From NCBI RefSeq assembly GCF_900113805.1, contig NZ_FOQT01000001.1, forward strand, positions 434,001-498,000: 64,000 nt of DNA. The letters are read 5' to 3'. Positions 4,142 through 15,559 of this stretch are shown here, in pieces. The number at the start of each line of letters is the position of its first letter. Position 1 is the first letter of the stretch. The stretch comes from Halpernia frigidisoli. Its GTDB lineage: Bacteria > Bacteroidota > Bacteroidia > Flavobacteriales > Weeksellaceae. Below the pieces are notes generated by a model. That model searched no databases. It was not told the origin of the DNA and saw nothing but the letters and a program-made list of their open reading frames with translations. The position numbers were made by a program, and so were the translations under genes.

Positions 4142-7100
4142 TTACATCATTTCCATTTTAAAACTCATACTTTCAATCACATTCAAAATCGCTTCCACAG
4201 TGTCCATTGAAGTTAAACACGGAACGCCATTTTCTACTGAAGTTCGGCGGATCTGGAAACCATCTCTTTCGGATTGTTTTCCTTTGGTCATAGTATTTAC
4301 AATGTATTGCACTTTTCCATTTTGAATTAAATCTATCAAATTTATTTCAGGATTTTCTTCAATTTTATAGCCAATTTTTGTTCGGATATTTTCATTTTTA
4401 AAGTAATTTGCCGTTCCTTCTGTCGCCCAAATTGTAAATCCAATTTCCTGAAATCTTCGGGCAAAATTCGCTGCTTGTTCTTTGTCTTTATCTGCAACGG
4501 TGAAAAGTATCGAACCTTTCAATGGCATTTTTCTGCCGGAAGCAATTAAACCTTTATACAAGGCTTTTTCGAGCGTCGAATCTTTGCCCATCACTTCGCC
4601 TGTAGACTTCATTTCTGGTCCGAGAGAGATGTCAACTTTCGTTAATTTAGAGAAAGAAAAAACGGGTACTTTTACAAAAATTCCATTTTTTATTGGCGCT
4701 AAACCATTTTTGTAACCTAAATCTTTTAATTTTTTTCCAAGAATTGCCTTTGTGGCCAAATTTGCCATTGGGATTTCTGTAATTTTCGATAAAAAAGGAA
4801 CAGTTCTACTTGCTCTTGGATTCACTTCGATCACAAAAACTTCTTTATTTGAAATAACATATTGAATGTTCATTAAACCAATGATATTTAGACCTTTTGC
4901 TAATCTTTCGGTGTAATCTATTAAAGTTGAAATTTGTTTTTCGCTAATATTTTGAGGCGGGTAAACGGCAATAGAATCACCGGAATGAACGCCGGCTCTC
5001 TCAATATGCTCCATAATTCCAGGGATTACAACTGTCTCTCCATCACAAATGGCGTCAACTTCAACTTCTTTTCCGGTTAAATAGCGGTCAATCAAAATAG
5101 GATGTTCAGAATTTTCTTTCACGGCATTCGTCATATAATGATCAAGTTCATGCGCATCATACACGATTTCCATCGCTCTTCCGCCTAATACGTAACTCGG
5201 ACGAACCAAAACTGGAAAACCGATTTCATTGGCGATAATTAAAGCGTCTTCTTTCGTAAAACAGGTTTTCCCCAAAGGTTGCGGAATTCCCATTTCCTGA
5301 AGAGCGGCTTCAAATTTATTTCTATTTTCCGCGCGGTCTAAATCTTCCAAAGAAGTTCCCAAAATTTTCACACCGTGTGCTGCTAATTTATCTGCTAAAT
5401 TAATTGCGGTTTGTCCACCAAACTGAACTACAACGCCTTTTGGTTGTTCTAATTCAATGATGTTCATGACATCTTCTTCTGTTAAAGGCTCGAAATAAAG
5501 TTTATCTGATATTGAAAAATCGGTAGAAACAGTTTCTGGATTATTGTTGATGATAATGGCTTCATAACCCAATTCTTTTATCGCCCAAACTGAGTGAACT
5601 GTGGCATAATCAAACTCTACACCTTGCCCAATACGAATTGGACCAGAACCTAAAACGATTATTTTCTCACGATTTGACGGGATGCTTTCATTTTCTTCTT
5701 CGTAAGTTCCGTAGAAATAGGGCGTTGCGCTTTCAAATTCTGCGGCGCAAGTATCGACCATTTTATAAACGGGCATCAGATTATTTTCTTTTCTAAAATC
5801 GAAAACTTCACGCTGAGAAGTTCCCCAAAGATGGGCAATATTCATATCAGAAAAACCGAGTTTTTTTGCTTTTTCTAAAGTTTCTAAATCAAATTTATTT
5901 GCAGAAATTTCTTTTTCAAAATCTATTAATTTTTTTAATTTCCAGATAAAGAATTTGTCAATTTTGCTCCATTCTACGATGGTTTCCCAATCGTAACCTT
6001 TTCGCAAAGCATCACAAATAATGAACAATCTTTCATCATCACAAACTTTTATTCTGCGTTCAATTTCTTCATCAGACATCGCTTCCGCAACTTTGGTTTT
6101 TAAACCTAAATGTCTCAAACCTGTTTCTAAGGAACGAATGGCTTTTTGTAAACTTTCTTCGAAATTCCTTCCAATCGCCATCACTTCGCCTGTGGCTTTC
6201 ATTTGGGTTGATAATTTTCGATCAGCAGTTTCAAATTTATCAAATGGAAACCTTGGGAATTTCGTAACAACATAATCCAAAGCCGGTTCAAAACAAGCGT
6301 AAGAAGTTCCTGTTACGGGATTCATGATTTCATCTAAAGTTAAACCGACCGCAATTTTCGCGGCAATTTTCGCAATCGGATAACCGGTTGCTTTACTCGC
6401 CAAAGCCGATGAACGCGAAACTCTTGGGTTTACTTCGATAATAAAATAGTTAAAAGAATGCGGATCTAAAGCCAATTGAACATTACAACCACCTTCAATC
6501 CCGAGTGCGCGAATAATTTTTAACGAAGAATTCCGCAACATTTGATATTCTCTGTCCGACAAAGTTTGAGATGGCGCAACAACAATCGAATCGCCCGTAT
6601 GAACACCGACTGGATCAATGTTTTCCATATTACAAACCACAATAGCATTGTCGTTTTTGTCGCGCATTACTTCGTATTCAATTTCTTTATAACCCGCAAT
6701 TGATCTTTCAATTAAACATTGACGAACCGGACTGTATTTCAAACCAAAACTGGTAATTTCTTTTAATTCTTCAATAGAATGTGCGATTCCGCCACCAGTT
6801 CCGCCCATTGTAAAAGCCGGACGAACGATTAATGGAAAGCCAATTTTTTCGGCAAATTTGACAGCGCCTTCTACATCATTTACAATATCAGAATCCGGTA
6901 CCGGTTCATTTAATTCTTTCATTAAATTGCGAAAAAGATCGCGGTCTTCTGCTTGATTTATCGCTGAAAGTTTTGTTCCTAAAATCTCAACTTTGCATTC
7001 ATCTAAGATCCCGGAATTTTGCAATTCCACCGCCATATTCAAACCAGTTTGTCCGCCTAAAGTTGGCAAAAGTGCATCTGGACGTTCTTTGCGAATAATA

Positions 7101-7324
7101 TGACTGACAAATTCTAAAGAAATTGGTTCGATATAAACTTTATCGGCAATTTCTACATCCGTCATTATCGTTGCTGGATTTGAATTTATTAAAATCACGC
7201 TGTAACCTTCTTCGCGCAAAGCGAGACAAGCCTGAGTTCCTGCATAATCAAATTCTGCGGCCTGGCCGATGATTATTGGGCCACTTCCAATTACTAAAAT
7301 GGTTTTTATGTCTGTTCTTTTCAT
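4142..7324 (-). CDS. carB: Carbamoyl-phosphate synthase large subunit
   Basis: Makes carbamoyl phosphate from bicarbonate, ATP and ammonia for pyrimidine and arginine synthesis, in complex with CarA. The 1060 residues match the usual length. Two homologous ATP-grasp halves are visible: the first begins with [21 protein letters not shown], the second near residue 565 with [20 protein letters not shown]. Glycine-rich ATP loops occur in both ([26 protein letters not shown]). The last 130 residues form the MGS-type regulatory domain ([21 protein letters not shown]), which in E. coli binds UMP and ornithine. It is the last gene of pyrB-carA-carB; a four-helix-bundle cassette separates it from carA. 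Confidence 0.98.
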
Positions 7325-7331
7325 AGTTCTT

Positions 7332-7812
7332 AGTGTAACAATTTATCAATTTAACAGTGTAACAATATGTGAATGTTACAATATTCAAATTTTAAATTAA
7401 TTAGATGTTTTCTTGACTTTCTTGTTTTAAACTTGTGCTTAATATTTTATAAATTATTTTTCCAATTTCAATAATTTGCTTTTCTAATTCATCATTGAAG
7501 GGATATGATTTTGCGTGTTTACAAAGAAAAAGCCAATATTTTGTCTCTTCCAATTCCTTCGCTGCAATCTTTATTTTATTAACAAAATCTTTTTTACTGC
7601 TTGGATTTTGGGCTTCAAATGAATTAGCGCCGATGCTTGTTCCACTTCGTAATAACTGTCTTGAAATGACGTATTTTTTATTTTGATCTAAAAGTTCACA
7701 AAACTCTATAATATTAAGTGAAAATTTAACTGTTTTTTCAATCAACGGATTTCCCTCAAAATTTATCATAATTGGTTTTTTAATTGACGTGTTAAAAAAT
7801 TGTTACACTGTT
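7332..7812. mobile_element. Repeat-bracketed four-helix-bundle cassette 1 (between carA and carB)
   Basis: The gene at 7401-7769 is flanked by a perfect 14-base inverted repeat: AACAGTGTAACAAT at 7353-7366 and ATTGTTACACTGTT at 7799-7812. The left side carries further related copies (GTGTAACAATTT from 7333). The right arm contains the carA stop codon (complement of 7803-7805) and its last codons. The boundaries given are those of the visible repeats. Calling it mobile is an inference from the repeated pattern seen at two other sites in this window. Confidence 0.5.
7401..7769 (-). CDS. Four-helix-bundle protein, 23S rRNA-IVP family (cassette 1)
   Basis: A 122-residue protein of the four-helix-bundle/'S23' family first found in 23S rRNA intervening sequences. 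Family features are the phrase SRQLLRSGTSIGANSFEAQNPSSKKDFVNKIKIAAKELEETKYWL (residues about 38-82) and an overall all-helical pattern. Relatives include the Avd protein of diversity-generating retroelements, but no reverse transcriptase is nearby. The gene sits in the pyrimidine operon between carA and carB, in the operon's direction, bracketed by an inverted repeat. Its molecular role is unknown; nucleic-acid binding is plausible from the relatives. Confidence 0.9.
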   Translation of the reverse strand: MINFEGNPLIEKTVKFSLNIIEFCELLDQNKKYVISRQLLRSGTSIGANSFEAQNPSSKKDFVNKIKIAAKELEETKYWLFLCKHAKSYPFNDELEKQIIEIGKIIYKILSTSLKQESQENI

Positions 7813-8885
7813 ACATTTTTAAATTGGTACATTAACAAGAGGAATTCATCAAACAAATAATTCGCATCTTCAGGACCCGGACTCGCCTCCGGGTGATATT
7901 GTACGGAAAAACAAGGGTAAACTGTATGTTTCAAACCTTCATTGGTTTTGTCATTTAAAGCAACGTGCGTTTCTTCCAAATCGGTTTGTTTTAAACTTTC
8001 CTGATCAACTGCGTAACCATGATTTTGAGAAGTAATCGCGACTTTATTTTTTGCTAAATCTAAAACTGGATGATTTCCACCGCGGTGTCCAAATTTTAAC
8101 TTGAAAGTTTTTGCGCCACAAGCCAAAGCAATCAATTGATGACCTAGACAAATCCCGAAAATTGGAATTTTTCCCAATAATTGCTGGATCATTTTAATTG
8201 CGATCGGATTATCTTCCGGATTCCCAGGACCGTTGGAAAGCATGATTCCGTCGGGATTTATTAATAAAATTTCTTCTGAAGTGACGTTATGAGAAACTAC
8301 TGTGACGTCACAATCACGTTCTGCTAATTCTCTTAAAATCCCCAATTTCGAACCAAAATCTACCAATACAACTTTGAAACCACGTCCCGGATTTGCGTAC
8401 GAAGTTTTTGTTGAAACTTTCGCAACTTCGTCTGTTGGAAAATTTTGATTTTTTAAGTCAGAAATAACTGTTGAAATATCAGAATCTGCGTCTGCAATTC
8501 GTCCTTTTACAACGCCGGAACTTCGTAAAACTCTGGTTAATCTTCTGGTGTCAATTCCGGAAATTCCTGCAATGTTTTTTTTAGCAAAAAATTCCTGCAA
8601 AGTCATTTGGGAGCGAAAATTTGAGGGAAAATCGCAGACTTCTTTTACGATAAGACCTTTTATGGAAGGCTGAATACTTTCAAAATCATCGCGATTAATT
8701 CCATAATTACCAATTAAAGGATACGTCATGCAAACCAATTGGTCGCAATACGAAGGGTCTGAAATTAATTCCTGATAACCCGTCATCGCGGTGTTAAAAA
8801 CCACTTCACCAAAAGAATTTTCATGATTTCCAAAACTTTCACCTTTGAAAACTTCGCCGGATTCTAATATTAATATTTTTTTCAT
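7803..8885 (-). CDS. carA: Carbamoyl-phosphate synthase small subunit
   Basis: Glutaminase subunit that feeds ammonia to CarB. The start chosen is the ATG at 8885 (MKKILILESGEVFKG), where family similarity begins; an upstream ATG would add seven residues from repeat DNA. The protein has 360 residues. The N-terminal CPSase_sm domain spans about 1-150, the class I amidotransferase domain about 170-350. The catalytic triad is visible: Cys246 in FGICLGHQ and His331/Glu333 in YHPEASPG. The last codons (FKNVTV) and the stop lie inside the repeat that borders the downstream four-helix-bundle cassette, so the C-terminus may have been replaced on insertion. Confidence 0.97.
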   Translation of the reverse strand: MKKILILESGEVFKGESFGNHENSFGEVVFNTAMTGYQELISDPSYCDQLVCMTYPLIGNYGINRDDFESIQPSIKGLIVKEVCDFPSNFRSQMTLQEFFAKKNIAGISGIDTRRLTRVLRSSGVVKGRIADADSDISTVISDLKNQNFPTDEVAKVSTKTSYANPGRGFKVVLVDFGSKLGILRELAERDCDVTVVSHNVTSEEILLINPDGIMLSNGPGNPEDNPIAIKMIQQLLGKIPIFGICLGHQLIALACGAKTFKLKFGHRGGNHPVLDLAKNKVAITSQNHGYAVDQESLKQTDLEETHVALNDKTNEGLKHTVYPCFSVQYHPEASPGPEDANYLFDEFLLLMYQFKNVTV

Positions 8886-8910
8886 AGTTACAGAGTCAAG
8901 ATGCAAGAGT

Positions 8911-9337
8911 CAAGAATCAAGATTGACAATTACATACTAGATTTTTATTTATTTAAATTATTTTTGAAAGTGTAAATCATTCTTTGAATTTCTTTTAATT
9001 CCAATATTAAAATATCTACATTATTCGCTTCTAAAAGTTGTAATTCTTTTGTTAGAATTAATTGAGTTTGCAATTCAAATGAAGATCCTAAAGCGATCGC
9101 TAAAAAGTGATTAAATTCTTTATCACTATTTCTTCCTGAACCTTCGGCAATATTTGAAGGAATTGAAACAGCAGATCTTTTCATTTGAGAAATCAATCCA
9201 AATTTTTCATCCTTTTCGATTTTTGAACAAACTAAATATATTTTCTTAGTTAATTCAATCGACCTTTTCCAAAATTGCAAATTTTCAAAATTGTGCATAT
9301 TTTTATTTTCTAGTTGGTTCTTTAATCTTGATTCTTG
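8911..9337. mobile_element. Repeat-bracketed four-helix-bundle cassette 2 (between pyrB and carA)
   Basis: The gene at 8945-9298 is flanked by a perfect 14-base inverted repeat: CAAGAATCAAGATT at 8911-8924 and AATCTTGATTCTTG at 9324-9337. Degenerate copies of the unit (GAGTCAAGATGCAAGAGTCAAG) extend left to about 8893. The right arm contains the pyrB stop codon (complement of 9322-9324) and the codons for its last residues. The arm sequence is unrelated to that of cassette 1, but the arrangement is the same. Confidence 0.5.
8945..9298 (-). CDS. Four-helix-bundle protein, 23S rRNA-IVP family (cassette 2)
   Basis: A 117-residue member of the same family as the proteins at 7401-7769 and 39036-39410. 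The opening MHNFENLQFWKRSIELTKKIY and the central 'LISQMKRSAVSIPSNIAEGSGR' are the standard family signature. It belongs to a different subgroup from its neighbour (the SIPSNIAEG form rather than SIGANSFEA), so the two copies in one operon are not a recent local duplication. It lies between pyrB and carA in the operon direction and is bracketed by an inverted repeat. Confidence 0.92.
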   Translation of the reverse strand: MHNFENLQFWKRSIELTKKIYLVCSKIEKDEKFGLISQMKRSAVSIPSNIAEGSGRNSDKEFNHFLAIALGSSFELQTQLILTKELQLLEANNVDILILELKEIQRMIYTFKNNLNK

Positions 9338-10200
9338 GTTCTTTGATGCAGAGCATCACTCAAAATTGCCATTCTTGCAAAAACACCGTTTTCCATTTGT
9401 TTAAAAATTCTGGATCGATCGCATTCTACCAAATGCGAATCGATCTCAACATTTCTGTTGATTGGTGCAGGATGCAAAATAATTGCTTTTTCTTTCATTA
9501 ATTTTTCCCGTTCTTTTGTCAAACCAAAGTTTTCTAAATAATTTTCTATTTTTAAATTTTCCGCATTTTCATGTCTTTCGTGTTGAATTCTCAATAAAAA
9601 TAAAACATCAACTTCGGGAATAATATCATCTAAATTTTTAAAATTATCTGATCCATCAAACCATTCTTCTGGACCTGAATAATAAACTTTCGAACCCATT
9701 TTAACCAAAGTTTCAGAAAGTGAATGCGCCACTCTTGAATGCTTGATGTCGCCTACAATTCCGATTTTTAAATTCTCAAAACTTCCGAATTCCTGCTGAA
9801 TCGTCATTAAATCTAAAATTGTCTGGCTCGGATGATTTGCCGTTCCGTCGCCTGCGTTAATTATCGGAATATTTAAACTTTCTAATTCTTCATAAAATTT
9901 ATTTCTAGAATGTCGGATCACCAATAAATTGACACCTATACTTTCCAAAGTTTTTGCTGTGTCATAAAGACTTTCACCTTTATTGACGGAACTTTTTGAC
10001 ACATCAAACTGAATTACTTCAAAACCCAATTTTCGTTCAGCCATTTCGAAACTTGTCTTTGTGCGCGTGCTGTCTTCAAAAAAAAGATTGGCGGCAAAGA
10101 TTTTAGTTTTGGGTTTAAATTCTAAACCATTTTTAAAATCATTTGCCAATGATAATATTTCGAGAATTTTTTCTTTGGTCAGGTTTTCTAAATTGTACAT
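9322..10200 (-). CDS. pyrB: Aspartate carbamoyltransferase catalytic subunit
   Basis: Condenses carbamoyl phosphate with aspartate, the first committed step of pyrimidine synthesis. The carbamoyl-phosphate loop is FFEDSTRTKTSFE (residues about 40-52), with HPSQTILDLMTIQQ near 125 and the aspartate-site region ILHPAPINRNVEI near 242. At 292 residues it is slightly short for the family. No regulatory pyrI gene is seen beside it. It heads the pyrB-carA-carB operon and is preceded by a leader peptide and terminator (10216-10314). The last residues (TKNQD) and the stop are encoded in the repeat arm of cassette 2. Confidence 0.97.
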   Translation of the reverse strand: MYNLENLTKEKILEILSLANDFKNGLEFKPKTKIFAANLFFEDSTRTKTSFEMAERKLGFEVIQFDVSKSSVNKGESLYDTAKTLESIGVNLLVIRHSRNKFYEELESLNIPIINAGDGTANHPSQTILDLMTIQQEFGSFENLKIGIVGDIKHSRVAHSLSETLVKMGSKVYYSGPEEWFDGSDNFKNLDDIIPEVDVLFLLRIQHERHENAENLKIENYLENFGLTKEREKLMKEKAIILHPAPINRNVEIDSHLVECDRSRIFKQMENGVFARMAILSDALHQRTKNQD

Positions 10201-10215
10201 TTTCTAAATTTTAAA

Positions 10216-10245
10216 CAAAAAAAAACGAAGCCGTTAAGACTTCGT
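10216..10245 (-). terminator. Leader terminator (attenuator) before pyrB
   Basis: On the minus strand, ACGAAGU (10245-10239) pairs with GCUUCGU (10231-10225) around the loop CUUAACG, followed by nine U residues (10225-10217). It lies 16 bases before the pyrB start codon and begins directly after the stop codon of the short leader reading frame. Its position inside the 5' leader, not after a gene, points to attenuation. Confidence 0.75.
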
Positions 10246-10314
10246 TTAATAAAAATATTGTGAAACGGCGAAACCGTCTTTTCTAAAATCGTTCAATGGA
10301 AATTTTATTTTCAT
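10246..10314 (-). CDS. Putative 22-residue leader peptide of the pyrB operon
   Basis: An ATG at 10314 opens a 22-codon frame that begins MKIKFPLNDF and ends AVSQYFY before TAA at 10246-10248. The stop codon touches the 5' arm of the terminator hairpin. The last codons are U-rich (CAA UAU UUU UAU UAA). This matches the design of the E. coli pyrBI leader, in which RNA polymerase pauses in a U-rich stretch when UTP is low so that the ribosome keeps up and prevents terminator folding. The ATG lies six bases after a TATCTTTG promoter element, so the peptide might be translated almost leaderless. Confidence 0.5.
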   Translation of the reverse strand: MKIKFPLNDFRKDGFAVSQYFY

Positions 10315-10320
10315 TGGGCA

Positions 10321-10328
10321 CAAAGATA
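10321..10328 (-). promoter_or_regulatory. -7 promoter element of the pyrB operon
   Basis: The minus strand reads TATCTTTG, an exact match to the Bacteroidetes TAnnTTTG element, about 120 bases before pyrB. No TTG is found at the ideal -33 distance. Confidence 0.5.
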
Positions 10329-10412
10329 GAATATTTTTTGAAATCTTAAAAATATTTTTAGCAACAATTAAAACTATTATTTAGGAAATCCATTTTTTAT
10401 CTTAATTTTTAA

Positions 10413-10420
10413 TAGTTTTG
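10413..10420 (+). promoter_or_regulatory. -7 promoter element of the Lrp-family gene
   Basis: TAGTTTTG matches TAnnTTTG and lies 14 bases before the ATG at 10435, which gives a very short 5' leader. Confidence 0.4.
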
Positions 10421-10434
10421 TTCAAAATCAAAAT

Positions 10435-10890
10435 ATGGACGCTAAAGACAGAATGATTCTCAGTTTACTTCAGGAAGATTCTACAATTTCGGTGAAGGAT
10501 GTTGCAGAGAAAATCGGACTTACTTTTACGCCAACTTACGAGCGCATCAAACAACTTGAGAAGCAAAATGTGATTGAGAAATACGTTGCTATTCTCAACC
10601 GTGAAAAATTGGGGCTCAATATAATTGTTTATTGCAACATTCGCTTGAAAGAACAGTCAAAAAAAACGCTTGAAGATTTTGAAAATCACATCAAAAAATT
10701 TGACGAAGTGCAGGAAATGATCAGTCTTTCCGGGGAATATGATTATATGTTGAAAATTATCGTAAAGGACATCAACTCTTATAACGACTTCGCTGTTAAT
10801 GTCATATCTAACTCGCCAAATATCTGGCAATACCATAGTTTGATCGCTTTATCTGAAGTTAAAAAAACCACCAAATATAAAATCGATTAA
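10435..10890 (+). CDS. Lrp/AsnC family transcriptional regulator
   Basis: A 151-residue regulator with an N-terminal winged helix-turn-helix (MDAKDRMILSLLQEDSTISVKDVAEKIGLTFTPTYERIKQLE, about 1-45) and a C-terminal RAM/AsnC ligand domain (about 65-145, including SLSGEYDYMLKIIVKD). Such proteins bind DNA as octamers and sense amino acids. The gene is divergent from the pyrB operon. Its stop codon overlaps the end of an argH remnant on the other strand, so amino-acid (possibly arginine) control is conceivable, but no target site can be shown. Confidence 0.93.
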   Translation: MDAKDRMILSLLQEDSTISVKDVAEKIGLTFTPTYERIKQLEKQNVIEKYVAILNREKLGLNIIVYCNIRLKEQSKKTLEDFENHIKKFDEVQEMISLSGEYDYMLKIIVKDINSYNDFAVNVISNSPNIWQYHSLIALSEVKKTTKYKID

Positions 10891-11034
10891 GCCAATAATT
10901 TGGAAGAGATTTTATGAAATTGATGCGTGATTTCTTCAAGACATAAATTGCCAATACTTCCCTGATGAGTGTGATTTAAGTCTTTTGCATCATATTCAAA
11001 TTCATTATTTTCAATGTCATTTCCGACTTTTGAC
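10887..11034 (-). pseudogene. argH: Remnant of argH (argininosuccinate lyase), 3' end only
   Basis: On the minus strand an open frame ends with TAA at 10887-10889. It encodes KVGNDIENNEFEYDAKDL followed by NHTHQGSIGNLCLEEI. This matches the C-terminal tail of Bacteroidetes argininosuccinate lyases, where a K-K-V-G-x-D-I-E motif is followed by H-T-H-x-G-S-I-G-N-L-C. Only about 45 codons remain. The upstream part is replaced, at about 11025-11036, by DNA coding on the opposite strand for an MFS transporter. The other 90 percent of argH is absent here, so this is a deletion remnant unless the sequence is misassembled. Confidence 0.75.
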
Positions 11035-12343
11035 GTTATTATTAATGGGAGGTGCTACTTTTTTAATCGGATGTATTCCCTCCTATGAAACGATCGGTTT
11101 TATGGCGCCTGTTTTAATTTTAACTTTAAGATTATTGCAAGGTCTGGCTTTAGGCGGAGAATATGGTGGAGCAGCAACTTATGTAGCCGAACATTCACCA
11201 ACAGGAAAACGTGGTTTTATGACTTCCTGGATTCAAACGACTGCAACGGTGGGACTTTTTATTTCCCTTCTTGTCATTATGGTCACAAAATCTTCAATGT
11301 CTAAAGAAGCTTTTATGGACTGGGGTTGGAGAGTTCCTTTCTGGGTTTCCATCATTATGATCATCGTTTCTTTTATTATCAGAAGAAAAATGTCTGAATC
11401 GCCGGTTTTTGCAAAAGCGAAAGAAGAAGGTAAAACTTCTAAAAATCCTTTGAAAGAATCTTTTGGCAATAAATTTAATTTCAAATTTGTTTTATTGGCA
11501 TTATTTGGTGCAGTGATGGGACAAGGCGTAGTTTGGTACACCGGACAATTTTACGCAATGAGTTTCCTGGAAAAAGTAATGGGATTGTCTGAGCAAGTAG
11601 GTTCAATCATGCTTTGGGGAATTGCTTTTGCCACACCATTTTTCCTATTCTTCGGTTGGTTGAGTGATAAAATTGGTAGAAAATGGATTATGATGGCAGG
11701 AATTCTTGTCGCAATTGTTTCTTATCGACCAATTTATGACGCAATGTATGAAGTAACCAACGTAAAAAATAAAACCGAAGTTGCAGAAAAAATGACGAAG
11801 TCTGCTGAATTGAAAGTCGTTAACGAAACTTTAAGCGACAGTGTTTATGTAACTTCCAAAGTTTTCACAGATGGAACAACCTGGAAGGAAACCAAAACTT
11901 TTGTTTTAGACGCCAGCAAAATGCCCGTTTTAAACGAGAAAGGTGAGAAGAAAATGGATGTGAAAATAGATGCAACAGTAAATGACAGTGGAAAATGGAC
12001 TTTAATTTTCTGGATCTTTGTTCAAATATTTTTTGTAACAATGGTTTATGGTCCGATCGCCGCGTTTTTGGTAGAAATGTTCCCGGTTCAGATTCGATAC
12101 ACTTCCATGTCTTTGCCTTATCATATTGGAAATGGAATCTTTGGTGGATTATTGCCCGCAATTGCAACGGCTTTGGTTCTCAATGCCAAAACGGCTAATA
12201 AAATTGCAGAAGCCGCAGGATTAGGAATTCCTTTCGACAAACCTTATCTGGAAGGACTTTGGTACCCGATCATCATTGGTGCAGTGAGTTTGCTCATCGG
12301 TGTTATTTATTTAAAAAACGGACATAACACGACTCACGATTAA
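10985..12343 (+). CDS. MFS transporter (metabolite:H+ symporter type), 5'-truncated
   Basis: Member of the sugar/metabolite-proton symporter branch of the major facilitator superfamily. Recognisable family similarity starts only near TLLLMGGATFLIG (about 11032). The first two membrane segments, about 80-100 residues, are missing. Later landmarks are present: LRLLQGLALGGEYGGAATYVAEH, GWRVPFWVS, GWLSDKIGRKW and VEMFPVQIRYTSMSLPYH. A polar insertion of roughly 90 residues (about residues 255-340), common in Bacteroidetes members, lies before the last helices. The first 14 codons from the TTG at 10985 are antisense to the argH remnant. The protein is probably non-functional. A small membrane-protein gene often paired with this transporter follows. 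Confidence 0.8.
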   Translation: MHHIQIHYFQCHFRLLTLLLMGGATFLIGCIPSYETIGFMAPVLILTLRLLQGLALGGEYGGAATYVAEHSPTGKRGFMTSWIQTTATVGLFISLLVIMVTKSSMSKEAFMDWGWRVPFWVSIIMIIVSFIIRRKMSESPVFAKAKEEGKTSKNPLKESFGNKFNFKFVLLALFGAVMGQGVVWYTGQFYAMSFLEKVMGLSEQVGSIMLWGIAFATPFFLFFGWLSDKIGRKWIMMAGILVAIVSYRPIYDAMYEVTNVKNKTEVAEKMTKSAELKVVNETLSDSVYVTSKVFTDGTTWKETKTFVLDASKMPVLNEKGEKKMDVKIDATVNDSGKWTLIFWIFVQIFFVTMVYGPIAAFLVEMFPVQIRYTSMSLPYHIGNGIFGGLLPAIATALVLNAKTANKIAEAAGLGIPFDKPYLEGLWYPIIIGAVSLLIGVIYLKNGHNTTHD

Positions 12344-12361
12344 TCATTTAATTTAAAAATC

Positions 12362-12589
12362 ATGAATAATATTAAGAAAATTCTAGGAATAGTTTGGATT
12401 TTATTAGCGCTTTTCGCTGGCTATTATCTACTGCAGGAACAGTCTATCCCAAAATTTAAGACAGGCAAAACGGAAGATTTAATTCCCGCAATTATTTATA
12501 CCTTTATTCTCTTACCAATTATCGTTGGTGGATTGGGAATATTCGGGTGGTATTCATTTAAGGGAGAATATTCAGACGACGAAATTTAG
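12362..12589 (+). CDS. Small membrane protein, MFS-transporter-associated
   Basis: A 75-residue protein with two membrane segments (about residues 6-25, IVWILLALFAGYYLL, and about 40-65, AAIIYTFILLPIIVGGLGIFG region). It starts 18 bases after the MFS gene and ends in an acidic tail (GEYSDDEI). Proteins of this type are commonly encoded directly after MFS metabolite symporters in Bacteroidetes and are sometimes named MFS small subunits. A function of its own is not established. Confidence 0.75.
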   Translation: MNNIKKILGIVWILLALFAGYYLLQEQSIPKFKTGKTEDLIPAIIYTFILLPIIVGGLGIFGWYSFKGEYSDDEI

Positions 12590-12619
12590 TGTTTGTATTT
12601 TAATAAGGTTTTTTTTAAT

Positions 12620-12653
12620 GTTTCAAGGGCGTCAAAGTCCTTGAAACTTTTTT
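12620..12653 (+). terminator. Intrinsic terminator after the MFS pair
   Basis: GTTTCAAGG (12620-12628) and CCTTGAAAC (12639-12647) pair perfectly and are followed by TTTTTT. It separates the transporter pair from the sensor-kinase genes. Confidence 0.85.
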
Positions 12654-12681
12654 CAGTAAAATTTATTTTCTCAAATTACAC

Positions 12682-12876
12682 ATGAAAATACGGCATCAAC
12701 AGAAACTGGTTATTTTAAGCATTACTTTATTAATATTGTTCAATGTTCCGTTTCTGCTTTTATTCAACAGTTCAGAAAAATTCGTGAGTTTGCCGCTCAT
12801 TTATGCCTATATTTTCTTCGTTTGGGGCGCATCATGCGTCAGTTCTTTTATCATTTTCAAAAAGTTCAATGAATAG
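12682..12876 (+). CDS. Small two-helix membrane protein upstream of the sensor kinase
   Basis: A 64-residue protein with two hydrophobic segments (about 8-28, KLVILSITLLILFNVPFLLLF, and about 37-60, PLIYAYIFFVWGASCVSSFIIF). Its last eight bases overlap the start of the SSS-domain kinase gene (ATGAATAG), so the two are translationally coupled. Similar short proteins often precede sodium/solute symporters, which suggests a subunit or assembly role for the symporter-like part of the kinase. No specific family function is known to me. Confidence 0.7.
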   Translation: MKIRHQQKLVILSITLLILFNVPFLLLFNSSEKFVSLPLIYAYIFFVWGASCVSSFIIFKKFNE

Positions 12877-15559
12877 TTATTTACTTTTCGCCCTGGTTAT
12901 TCTCTATCTGGGATTTTTGTTTTTGATCGCTTATTTTGCGGAAAAAAGTAAAAGCAACTTTTGGGTGAATAATCCTTACGTTTACGCACTTTCATTGGCA
13001 GTTTACTGTTCAGGATGGACGTATTATGGCAGTGTGGGCGTTGCAGCAAATCAAGGTTTAGAATACATGGCGATTTACATTGGTCCCGTAATTATTATTC
13101 CAAGTTGGATCTTCATTAATGCGAAAGTGATCAGAATTTGTCGCGTAAATAAAATAAGCAGTATCGCCGATTTCATTTCTCTGCGATATGGCAACAGTCG
13201 GTTTTTAAGCGCAATTATCGCAACAGTTTGCATGATCGCCATTATTCCTTACATCGGTTTGCAGATCAAAGCAATTTCCGAAACTTTTCATTTGATCACC
13301 AAAACTTCACAAACAGATAATGTTCTATTTGATTCTGCAAGTTATGTTGTCTTAATAATTGCCCTGTTTTCCTCTTATTACGGCACAAAATACGTCGATG
13401 CTTCTGAAAAAAGATTAGGCATTATCGCTGCAGTTGCGGTTGAAAGTTTCCTGAAACTCATTTTCTTTATTATCCTTGGAACTTTTGTCGTTTATGGCGT
13501 TTTTAATGGTTTCGAAGATATTTATGATCAAGCGTCAAAATTACCAGATTTCACTACTAAAAATACTTTCGGCGGTTTAGAAGGTGCAGTTAATTGCTTT
13601 TTAATGATGTTGCTTTCCATGTCTGCCATTTTTCTTTTACCGAGACAATTTCATGTTTCAATTATTGAAAACAGAAAAGAAAAACATCTTAAAACAGCGA
13701 TATGGTTATTTCCCTTGTACCTTTTAATTTTTAATATTTTCGTTTTCCCAATTGCTTGGGGCGGAAAAATTCTTTTTCTGAATGAAACGGTTAATGCCGA
13801 GTTCTTCTCTATTTTAATTCCACAAAAATTCGGAAATACATTAATTGCGGTGATGGTATTTTTTGGTGGATTGAGTGCCTGTGTTTCGATGATCATTATT
13901 TCGAGTATTTCGCTATCCATCATGCTTTCAAACAATATTATTATTCCTTACGGATGGCTAAATAATTTTAAATTTAATTCAGAAAAAGACAATACCAAGA
14001 ATATTGTCAACATCAGAAAAATAAGTATTTTTCTGCTCATTTTAGTGAGTTTTATGTTTTATAAATTCTGGATTTTGCAGAAGAGTTTATTCAGTATCGG
14101 ATTGGTTTCTTTTGTAGTCATTGCGCAATTAGCTCCCACTTTTTTCGGAGCGCTCTTTTGGCGGAGAGGAACTTACGCAGGTGCTCTAACTGGAATTATT
14201 GCCGGAATTTCAATATGTTTTTTCGGTTTGATTTTACCAAGTTTTTCGGAGAATTATGTCGAAAGCAGTTTTTTCAACAGTGGTTTTTTAGCGTTTTTCA
14301 GTATTCCCTATTTATTGCCAATTCCGCAAATCTTCTTTTGGAGTGTATTGGTAAATGCCGGTTTATTTGGAATAATTTCAACCAACACCATTGCGAATTA
14401 CCGGGAACGAAATTACGCTGAACTTTACACTGATATTGATGATTATATTCAAAATCACGAGAATGCTTACATCTGGAAAGGAACTGCAAATATTTCCGAT
14501 ATTCAAAAGATTTTAGTACGGTTTTTAGGTCAGAAAAAAACTGAACAAGCCCTTAAAATATTTAATTTAAAATATAAAATTACCGGCGGAAATGATTCTG
14601 CAGATTCCCGCTTCATCAAGTTTTCTGAAAATCTTTTGAGTGGTAGAATAGGTTCTGCTTCGGCGAAAATTTTGATTGAAGGTGTAACCAAAGAAGATAA
14701 AATTTCTCTCCCGGAAGTTTTAAAAATTTTAGAAGAATCCAAAGAAAATATCTCCATTAACAAACAACTGAGTGAGCAATCTTCTCAATTATTAAAATTA
14801 TCCAGAGATCTGCAAAATGCAAATGAAAATCTGATTGAAAAAGACCATCAAAAAGATGAATTTTTAGATAGTGTCGCGCACGAATTACGAACACCGATCA
14901 CGGCGATCCGCGCTACAGGTGAGATTTTGTTAGACGATGAAGATATGCCCGCAGAAATTAAAAAAGAATTTTTAGAAAACATTATTTCAGAATCCGATCG
15001 TCTAAATGAAATTATCAATGATATTTTGTACTTAGATAAACTGGAAACCGGCACAATTTCCTTGAATATTAAGGATAATAATATTGTAGAAACTTTTAAA
15101 AAATCTTTGAAACCTTTGCATCATCTTTTCGATCAAAGACATCTTCACCATTCTGAAGTTAATCTTTTAGAAAATGAAATCTATTACTTTGATGAACAAA
15201 GAATGATTCAGGTTTTTCAAAATATTATTGGAAATGCGCTTAAATTCACCAACGAAAATGGAATGATTCAAACAAAATTTCATGAAAATGATGATCAGCT
15301 AAAAATTTCCATATTCAACACCGGAAAAACGATTCCGGATGAAGATTTTGACTATGTTTTTGATAAATTCTACCAGTCGAAAAATCAAAATGTTCGCAAA
15401 CCTATTGGTAGTGGATTAGGTTTAGCGATTTGTAAAAAAATTATGCTTGCCCAAAATGGTGATATTAAAGTGAAAAATAAGGAGATTGGAGTCAGCTTCG
15501 AGATTTATTTACAGAAAGAAAACGACTCTGTACAAAATGCAGATAAACAAAATATTTAA
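12869..15559 (+). CDS. Sensor histidine kinase with SSS symporter and STAC domains (CbrA/CrbS-like)
   Basis: An 896-residue hybrid. The first about 500 residues are a sodium:solute symporter-like membrane domain with many helices (opening LLFALVILYLGFLFLIAYFAE). Next comes a STAC-type linker (about 530-640; FLGQKKTEQALKIFNLKY, SENLLSGRIGSASAKILIEGV). A HisKA domain carries the phosphoacceptor His671 (SVAHELRTPITAIR), followed by an HATPase domain (N-box NIIGNALKFTNENG; GSGLGLAICKKI). No PAS domain is seen. The start at 12869 is chosen because the longer frame overlaps the upstream gene. In Vibrio, CrbS of this build controls acs. Here a response regulator and two acyl-CoA synthetase genes follow, which fits acetate/short-chain-acid control. 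Confidence 0.93.
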   Translation: MNSYLLFALVILYLGFLFLIAYFAEKSKSNFWVNNPYVYALSLAVYCSGWTYYGSVGVAANQGLEYMAIYIGPVIIIPSWIFINAKVIRICRVNKISSIADFISLRYGNSRFLSAIIATVCMIAIIPYIGLQIKAISETFHLITKTSQTDNVLFDSASYVVLIIALFSSYYGTKYVDASEKRLGIIAAVAVESFLKLIFFIILGTFVVYGVFNGFEDIYDQASKLPDFTTKNTFGGLEGAVNCFLMMLLSMSAIFLLPRQFHVSIIENRKEKHLKTAIWLFPLYLLIFNIFVFPIAWGGKILFLNETVNAEFFSILIPQKFGNTLIAVMVFFGGLSACVSMIIISSISLSIMLSNNIIIPYGWLNNFKFNSEKDNTKNIVNIRKISIFLLILVSFMFYKFWILQKSLFSIGLVSFVVIAQLAPTFFGALFWRRGTYAGALTGIIAGISICFFGLILPSFSENYVESSFFNSGFLAFFSIPYLLPIPQIFFWSVLVNAGLFGIISTNTIANYRERNYAELYTDIDDYIQNHENAYIWKGTANISDIQKILVRFLGQKKTEQALKIFNLKYKITGGNDSADSRFIKFSENLLSGRIGSASAKILIEGVTKEDKISLPEVLKILEESKENISINKQLSEQSSQLLKLSRDLQNANENLIEKDHQKDEFLDSVAHELRTPITAIRATGEILLDDEDMPAEIKKEFLENIISESDRLNEIINDILYLDKLETGTISLNIKDNNIVETFKKSLKPLHHLFDQRHLHHSEVNLLENEIYYFDEQRMIQVFQNIIGNALKFTNENGMIQTKFHENDDQLKISIFNTGKTIPDEDFDYVFDKFYQSKNQNVRKPIGSGLGLAICKKIMLAQNGDIKVKNKEIGVSFEIYLQKENDSVQNADKQNI

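Follow-up and report, generated by a model that had tools for sequence, protein, structure and literature searches.

A candidate translation-coupled attenuator in the pyrB leader of Halpernia frigidisoli and other Weeksellaceae

Here we describe a leader ahead of pyrB in Halpernia frigidisoli and its relatives in the Weeksellaceae, a family that includes Chryseobacterium, Kaistella and Riemerella, which probably acts as an attenuator. In the reading that we favor, translation of a short leader frame, and not the peptide that it yields, would decide read-through into pyrB-carA-carB, with UTP as the signal, much as in the pyrBI operon of Escherichia coli. Judged by comparison among relatives, the parts of the leader and their spacing are conserved, its three hairpins covary, its frame stays open while the peptide is unconstrained, and no PyrR is detectable. 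If true, this would place repressor-free UTP-sensing attenuation in the Bacteroidota, and a translated leader in the position that the regulator protein PyrR holds in related families. Passages of earlier work report strong clues that amino-acid operons of Flavobacterium psychrophilum are preceded by leader-peptide attenuators (PMC9723704) and describe Bacteroidota mRNAs as being without Shine-Dalgarno sequences (PMC6847099). Among the open-licence papers listed, judged by title and abstract opening, we found none on a pyrB leader attenuator in Bacteroidota, and the novelty of the device is provisional because the search was limited to open-licence papers.

Layout of the leader and its conservation among relatives

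All parts of the leader lie on the minus strand of the window, by which we mean the whole 64-kb stretch of H. frigidisoli DNA that was analyzed. Reading the sequence, we find a Bacteroidota -7 promoter element of the TAnnTTTG class, TATCTTTG (10321..10328), then a gap of 6 nt, TGCCCA (10315..10320), and then the leader frame MKIKFPLNDFRKDGFAVSQYFY of 22 codons and a TAA (10246..10314; ATG at 10314-10312, TAA at 10248-10246). Passages of two studies place TAnnTTTG at -12 to -5 in flavobacteria (PMC9723704; PMC6847099), so transcription is predicted to start at the fifth base past the element, C10316, which would leave a 5' UTR of 2 nt. Hairpin H1 (10294..10316) pairs the start codon (CAAUG/CAUUG), and hairpin H2 (10263..10279), in which AGACGGU and GCCGUUU flank UUC, is a candidate RNA-polymerase pause hairpin. 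The interval between H2 and the terminator holds the U-rich candidate pause tract AUAUUUUUAUU (10248..10258). Hairpin H3 (10223..10247) is the intrinsic terminator hairpin and putative attenuator, with the stem AAACGAAGTC/GGCTTCGTTT of 10 pairs and a loop of 5, and the first three bases of its T run (10217..10225) also close the stem. The TAA of the leader frame overlaps the base of H3 and lies 45 nt from pyrB, and 16 nt separate the T run from the pyrB ATG.

Downstream on the same strand follow pyrB for the aspartate carbamoyltransferase catalytic chain (9322..10200, ATG at 10200), a gene for a four-helix-bundle protein (TIGR02436; 8945..9298), carA (7803..8906), a second four-helix-bundle gene (TIGR02436; 7401..7769) and carB (4142..7324). 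A frame matching the TIGR02436 gene is also present in the pyrB-carA interval of Halpernia humi (L011 3912-4265). Upstream, a divergent Lrp/AsnC-type regulator gene (10435-10890, plus strand) has its intergenic region in common with the pyrB leader and is likewise found in H. humi (L011 2309-2764); by eye, the sequence upstream of the leader differs in many relatives.

The first-pass annotation had reported the promoter element, an ATG six bases on, a 22-codon frame, a TAA at the hairpin edge and then pyrB, and each is found where it was placed. Beyond that annotation, the present analysis adds H1 and H2, the pyrimidines at the predicted start of transcription and the two small four-helix-bundle genes among pyrB, carA and carB. 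A scan for this layout (TAHHTTTG, an ATG 3-9 nt away, a short frame and a terminator) returned this site as the single match across both strands of the 64 kb, against a mean of 0.1 in 40 dinucleotide-shuffled windows, 37 of which gave zero and none more than 2. A plain terminator by itself is not rare (1 found vs 0.6 expected in 1 kb). It is the combination of elements, rather than the terminator alone, that is unusual, and the arrangement of promoter, leader and terminator is confirmed as real, beyond chance. The same scan gave 34 matches in the loci of 37 relatives (239,147 bases), none of them off-site by a position filter that left out six shorter or shifted loci. No known RNA family reached its Rfam gathering score between positions 7000 and 13000 of the window (best 28 bits vs 60), and the two matches there are at chance level.

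To compare relatives, a parser that required a TAnnTTTG-class element was applied to the window and to 129 loci, which makes 130 sources; some genomes are represented twice, from two collections. It returned 125 leaders, 85 of them distinct, which fall into 29 clusters by greedy clustering at 75%. The five that it missed are the four loci L130-L133 of genus g3 and L047, which has a short terminator stem yet scores 97 bits with the covariance model described below. In 84 of the 85 distinct leaders, PyrB begins no more than 200 nt farther on. The remaining leader, L194, shows no start of PyrB over the 173 nt that were read beyond it, where there is an apparent inserted repeat, and its frame has the earliest stop of all (-13).

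The frame set by the ATG stays open until 10 nt or less from the terminator in 84 of the 85 distinct leaders; the other two frames do so in 4 and 21. Relative to the first base of the terminator stem, the stop ends at -4 to +2 in 69 of the 85, and these leaders have 21-26 codons. In 14 others it is found at +20 or farther on, and two leaders stop early (-8 and -13). The peptide itself appears free to change. In one cluster, for which we used those 15 of its 27 members (14 distinct) that share one offset of the U motif, variable sites are spread over codon positions 1, 2 and 3 (11/19, 9/18 and 10/18), and pairwise single-base codon differences comprise 383 nonsynonymous and 100 synonymous changes, so that this codon-position test showed no peptide constraint. 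Moreover, 19 of the 29 clusters have an AUAUU motif, which falls in each of the three frames (12, 4 and 3 clusters), and this indicates that it is kept as RNA. We therefore rejected a function at the level of the peptide, given the motif in all frames and the lack of codon-position constraint in the one cluster. Coupling to a ribosome predicts a frame that is read while its product is free, and an open, unconstrained frame fits this prediction.

The three hairpins are supported by covariation. In an alignment of 63 distinct rows, which was fitted to the structure under test and so favors it, 20 of 22 pairs across H1-H3 have changes on both sides, with 117 both-side-changed cells vs 26.7 in shuffles; 93.9% of cells are paired, compared with 34-46% when partners are slid. 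These rows include one spurious second match in L111 and lack L129. For H3, 99.6% of cells are paired and 8 of 9 pairs have changed on both sides, as have all 4 pairs of H2. The sequence of the H2 stem varies (GGC..GCC, GGGCG..CGCCC, CAACUC..GAGUUG, GAAGG..CCUUC, UUAGAG..CUCUAA). Across the 29 clusters its mean energy is -4.88 vs -1.02 kcal/mol in shuffles, although it outranks 95% of shuffles in only 16 of them, and the finder picked the wrong hairpin in L162. From H2 to the first UUU run there is a median of 10.5 nt (range 0-18; 28 clusters), and to H3 usually 15-26 nt. The mean U fraction is 0.62 in the last 15 nt ahead of H3 vs 0.28 in the earlier frame (29 clusters), with a weak or shifted U run in L124, L129 and L138. 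An alternative fold had been suggested from the complementarity GCCGUU/AACGGC; the pairing is present in the window but is not conserved, and no conserved competing pair between H2 and H3 was found (longest complementary run 4.21 vs 3.83 shuffled).

The check that the first-pass annotation had called for, a comparison of pyrB leaders across the family, thus finds that relatives keep the hairpin and the short frame in their sequences, as well as the distance from the stop to the hairpin. Its main reading, attenuation of the pyrBI type by ribosome coupling, is supported at this level by a frame that stays open, a peptide that is free to change and parts that are retained.

A pyrBI-like reading and its alternatives

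In the mechanism that we propose, transcription would start a few bases ahead of the AUG, and RNA polymerase would make H2 and then have to add the U run about 10 nt on. When UTP is scarce, the polymerase would wait at the U run, allowing the leading ribosome to catch up and unfold H2; on reaching the stop at the foot of H3, or on running into H3, the ribosome would block the terminator and pyrB would be transcribed. When UTP is plentiful, the polymerase would outrun the ribosome, H3 would form and transcription would end. We infer the pausing at the U run, the UTP signal, the translation of the leader and its coupling to the polymerase, the blockage of H3 by the ribosome and the start of transcription. 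If the reading is right, it raises the question of whether ribosome-polymerase coupling is tight in Bacteroidota.

The leader resembles E. coli pyrL (mechanism covered in passages of PMC10135430 and PMC4824070) in several ways. Both have a short frame open to or into an intrinsic terminator just ahead of pyrB, as well as a U-rich stretch before that terminator, which we recognize here as sequence. Both also have a hairpin about 10 nt before the U-rich stretch: our reading of the K-12 sequence gives GCGUC/GACGC, 10 nt and then UUUUU, close to the Weeksellaceae median, and PMC9291695 uses a 10-nt spacer for hisL-type pauses. The same source considers it improbable that the pyrL pause depends on an RNA structure; a pause that needs its hairpin would thus set Weeksellaceae apart from E. 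coli. Other differences lie in layout and length. E. coli pyrL has 44 codons, GGGAGG ahead of its start, a terminator within the frame with the stop 47 nt past the start of the stem, and 38 nt between hairpin and terminator, whereas most Weeksellaceae leaders are shorter, stop at the stem, have a smaller H2-H3 interval and are nearly leaderless by prediction. Downstream of pyrB, E. coli has pyrI, whereas the window has a four-helix-bundle gene and carA. Finally, unlike in pyrL, the start codon lies inside H1 in most Weeksellaceae leaders, and H1 counts against a plain pyrBI model, which has no need of it, since it should make leader translation harder. By its anatomy and the signature of its evolution, we class the leader as one that works like pyrBI, outside the enterobacterial pyrL family and probably of separate origin.

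Other attenuators share single features with it. Sinorhizobium meliloti trpL also has a leader frame that starts at the 5' end of the mRNA, but it is a trp attenuator, as part of PMC7298713 describes, whereas the Weeksellaceae leader sits on pyrimidine genes. Attenuators of the trp/his type rely on regulatory codons and on a competing antiterminator hairpin, both conserved; we find neither, as the peptide is unconstrained in the one cluster tested and H2-H3 pairing is not conserved. Bacillus-type attenuation by PyrR likewise controls pyr genes through a terminator, but its leader binds a protein and ours has a control frame. A profile search for PyrR (NF003549), which was positive in 6 of 14 control genomes, found none in 320 Weeksellaceae genomes, and we rejected control by PyrR on this result.

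Could the same parts serve another signal or another switch? The attenuator might sense the general state of translation or elongation rather than UTP, with a slowed polymerase or altered near-leaderless initiation shifting read-through. The conserved parts would suit any ribosome-coupling device, and the frame begins, by prediction, almost at the 5' end and in most clusters within a fold; nevertheless, we regard this as rather unlikely, since U is enriched directly ahead of H3 and the device appears to sit on pyrB alone. With a covariance model built from 21 leaders, 16 genomes searched for extra copies gave one strong match in 13 and none in G205, G292 and G318, with further matches only at E>0.004 and no strong second copy. 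The structured, covarying hairpins of a pyr leader could also suggest direct control of H3 by an RNA-binding protein, be it PyrR-like or of another kind, with H1 or H2 as its binding site. This is very improbable in our view, as no PyrR was found in the 320 family genomes, the stems and loops of H2 vary freely in sequence, no Rfam family reached its gathering score in the 7000-13000 region, and a protein switch would leave the open frame unexplained. The idea to which we give the least credence is amino-acid attenuation or an arrest peptide, in which the switch would be set by a ribosome stalled at particular codons or by its own nascent peptide. Its appeal comes from the (D/N)-I-(Y/F) ending that is common among leaders, but this ending is AUAUUU read in one frame, and other clusters use other frames; the unconstrained peptide of the one cluster and the missing H2-H3 competition speak against it as well.

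The start-codon hairpin and the predicted transcription start

The gap between promoter element and ATG is 6 nt in 78 of the 85 distinct leaders, 5 nt in six and 7 nt in one. All 78 leaders with a 6-nt gap have YYR at gap positions 4-6, compared with 6 of 51 other promoter-like sites in the loci; of those 51 sites, 71% have A as their fifth base and 22% a pyrimidine. C also stands at position 5 in the leader whose gap is 7 nt, whereas the six leaders whose gap is 5 nt carry A there, so that 79 of 85 leaders are predicted to start transcription on a pyrimidine. For comparison, leaderless mRNAs make up 5.5% in F. psychrophilum, as given in part of PMC9723704.

Across the 29 clusters, the start codon is paired with a mean probability of 0.65 vs 0.40 in shuffles (combined p 4e-6; Wilcoxon 3e-4) and above 0.5 in 21. 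It is low in eight (L027, L040, L122, L126, L189, L190, L195 and L198), and these eight include four of the five clusters whose gap is 5 nt. With single-linkage clustering, which puts 76 of the 85 leaders into one of 10 clusters, start-codon pairing is not significant (combined p 0.15), and because the two clusterings disagree, the statistic depends on how the relatives are thinned. Gap positions 6, 5 and 4 can pair within H1 in 19, 15 and 14 of 24 clusters, and positions 3, 2 and 1 in 6, 5 and 11; a drop past position 4 suits a 5' end of the RNA there. When the window leader is folded, the probability that its AUG is paired is 0.97 if the transcript starts at C10316, 0.33 if at A10315 and 0.09 if at A10314, and in the 21 clusters with strong H1 the means are 0.81 for a start at position 5, 0.58 at position 6 and 0.36 at the AUG.

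These patterns recall E. coli pyrC and pyrD, in which, according to part of PMC7818426, a start on C completes a hairpin that stops translation. Folding suggests that a pyrimidine first base could complete a hairpin here too, as in E. coli and Salmonella pyrC/pyrD, and in most clusters sequence and folding fit such a switch with starts as predicted; but the pyrC/pyrD hairpin blocks the gene itself, whereas H1 would block the leader frame of an attenuator. On this basis we raise, tentatively and with more doubt than confidence, a two-stage pyrimidine sensor within about 100 nt, in which the first transcribed base would be the first sensor and the U-run pause the second. With CTP and UTP plentiful, transcription would start on the conserved pyrimidine, and the 5' end would close H1 over the AUG; the leader would stay untranslated and H3 would terminate. 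With pyrimidines scarce, the start would shift downstream by one or two bases, to A/G or to the AUG itself, and H1 would open; a ribosome could then load on the leaderless frame, and the U-run pause past H2 would let it reach H3. Such a sensor would not cover every member, since in the six leaders whose gap is 5 nt the predicted first base is A, and H1 is weak as well in four of their five clusters. If true, start switching of the pyrC type would be fused with attenuation of the pyrBI type in a lineage without PyrR, which opens the question of whether a first transcribed base can gate a near-leaderless frame. Alternatively, H1 might have nothing to do with translation of the leader and be a stem that stabilizes the mRNA at its 5' end, or an operator in the DNA, which we consider unlikely: the stop of pairing near the predicted 5' end in the 24 clusters would agree with such a role, while the distance between start codon and partner, which varies from 8 to 31 nt over 24 clusters, speaks against the operator but not against the stabilizing stem.

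Distribution in the family, PyrR and the origin of pyrB

The leader is present in 25 of 33 Weeksellaceae genera. In a PyrB protein scan of named genomes, the best 80 of 530 relatives comprise 37 Weeksellaceae or MAG loci and 43 Bacilli, and all 37 of the former have TAnnTTTG, an ATG 5-6 bases on and a terminator ahead of pyrB; the nearest named relative among these 80 is H. humi, itself of the Weeksellaceae, with 76% identity in PyrB. The covariance model matches 286 of 320 family genomes and 30 of 33 genera at E<=1, and 268 genomes and 21 genera at E<=0.001 (counted from the same table); several of the weaker matches are probably due to chance, as they fall in genomes without pyrB. Four more genera, whose model scores are weak or missing, were recognized when the loci themselves were read (g4, L125; g9, L124; g15, L122; g31, L129).

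Genus g3 has pyrB and no leader of this kind in the four loci read (L130-L133); L131-L133 do have a terminator-like hairpin upstream of pyrB, but without the promoter-ATG layout. The PyrB of g3 is more distant, at 54-55% identity. In the seven other genera without the leader, none of the 17 genomes tested, three of which are 56-83% complete, has an aspartate carbamoyltransferase above the family cut-off, and the same holds for G003 of genus g2. The 18 genomes concerned (G003, G205, G206, G207, G209, G214, G218, G243, G291, G292, G293, G295, G297, G299, G301, G306, G307 and G318) may need external pyrimidines.

Across the class, a sample of 295 genomes gave five model matches at E<=0.001, three of them inside Weeksellaceae; the other two (L206 and L207), read by eye, have no promoter-ATG-frame layout. 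Thus no true leader was found outside the family among these 295 genomes with stricter filters and a sequence-heavy model, a setting that may have missed diverged leaders because the model places the true leaders L027 and L124 above E=0.01.

PyrR is present in 65 of 99 genomes sampled from the order, namely in 65 of 88 from other families and in none of 11 Weeksellaceae. All 20 pyrB loci from other families of the order have a PyrR-sized frame directly upstream; the one in L164 is PyrR by NCBIfam, and for 12 of the 20 the search for PyrR across the order placed a match at exactly this position. Because PyrR, or a frame of its size, stands ahead of pyrB in those loci and no PyrR was found in this family, the leader looks, from the gene content, like a substitute for control by PyrR. 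The PyrB of the window is 54-61% identical to the 43 Bacilli PyrB proteins (among the best 80 of 530) and about 40-45% identical to those of other families among the matches listed. This higher identity to Bacilli than to other Flavobacteriales suggests a horizontal replacement of pyrB, along with the absence of pyrR, in a scan that favored close matches.

Four MAGs labeled Chitinophagaceae or Bacteroidetes (L024, L033, L037 and L038) carry a pyrB and a leader of this type, and either their labels may be wrong or the locus may have been transferred. One further genome, G248, has two different leaders, L195 and a second match that scores the same as L018, and is possibly a mixed assembly.
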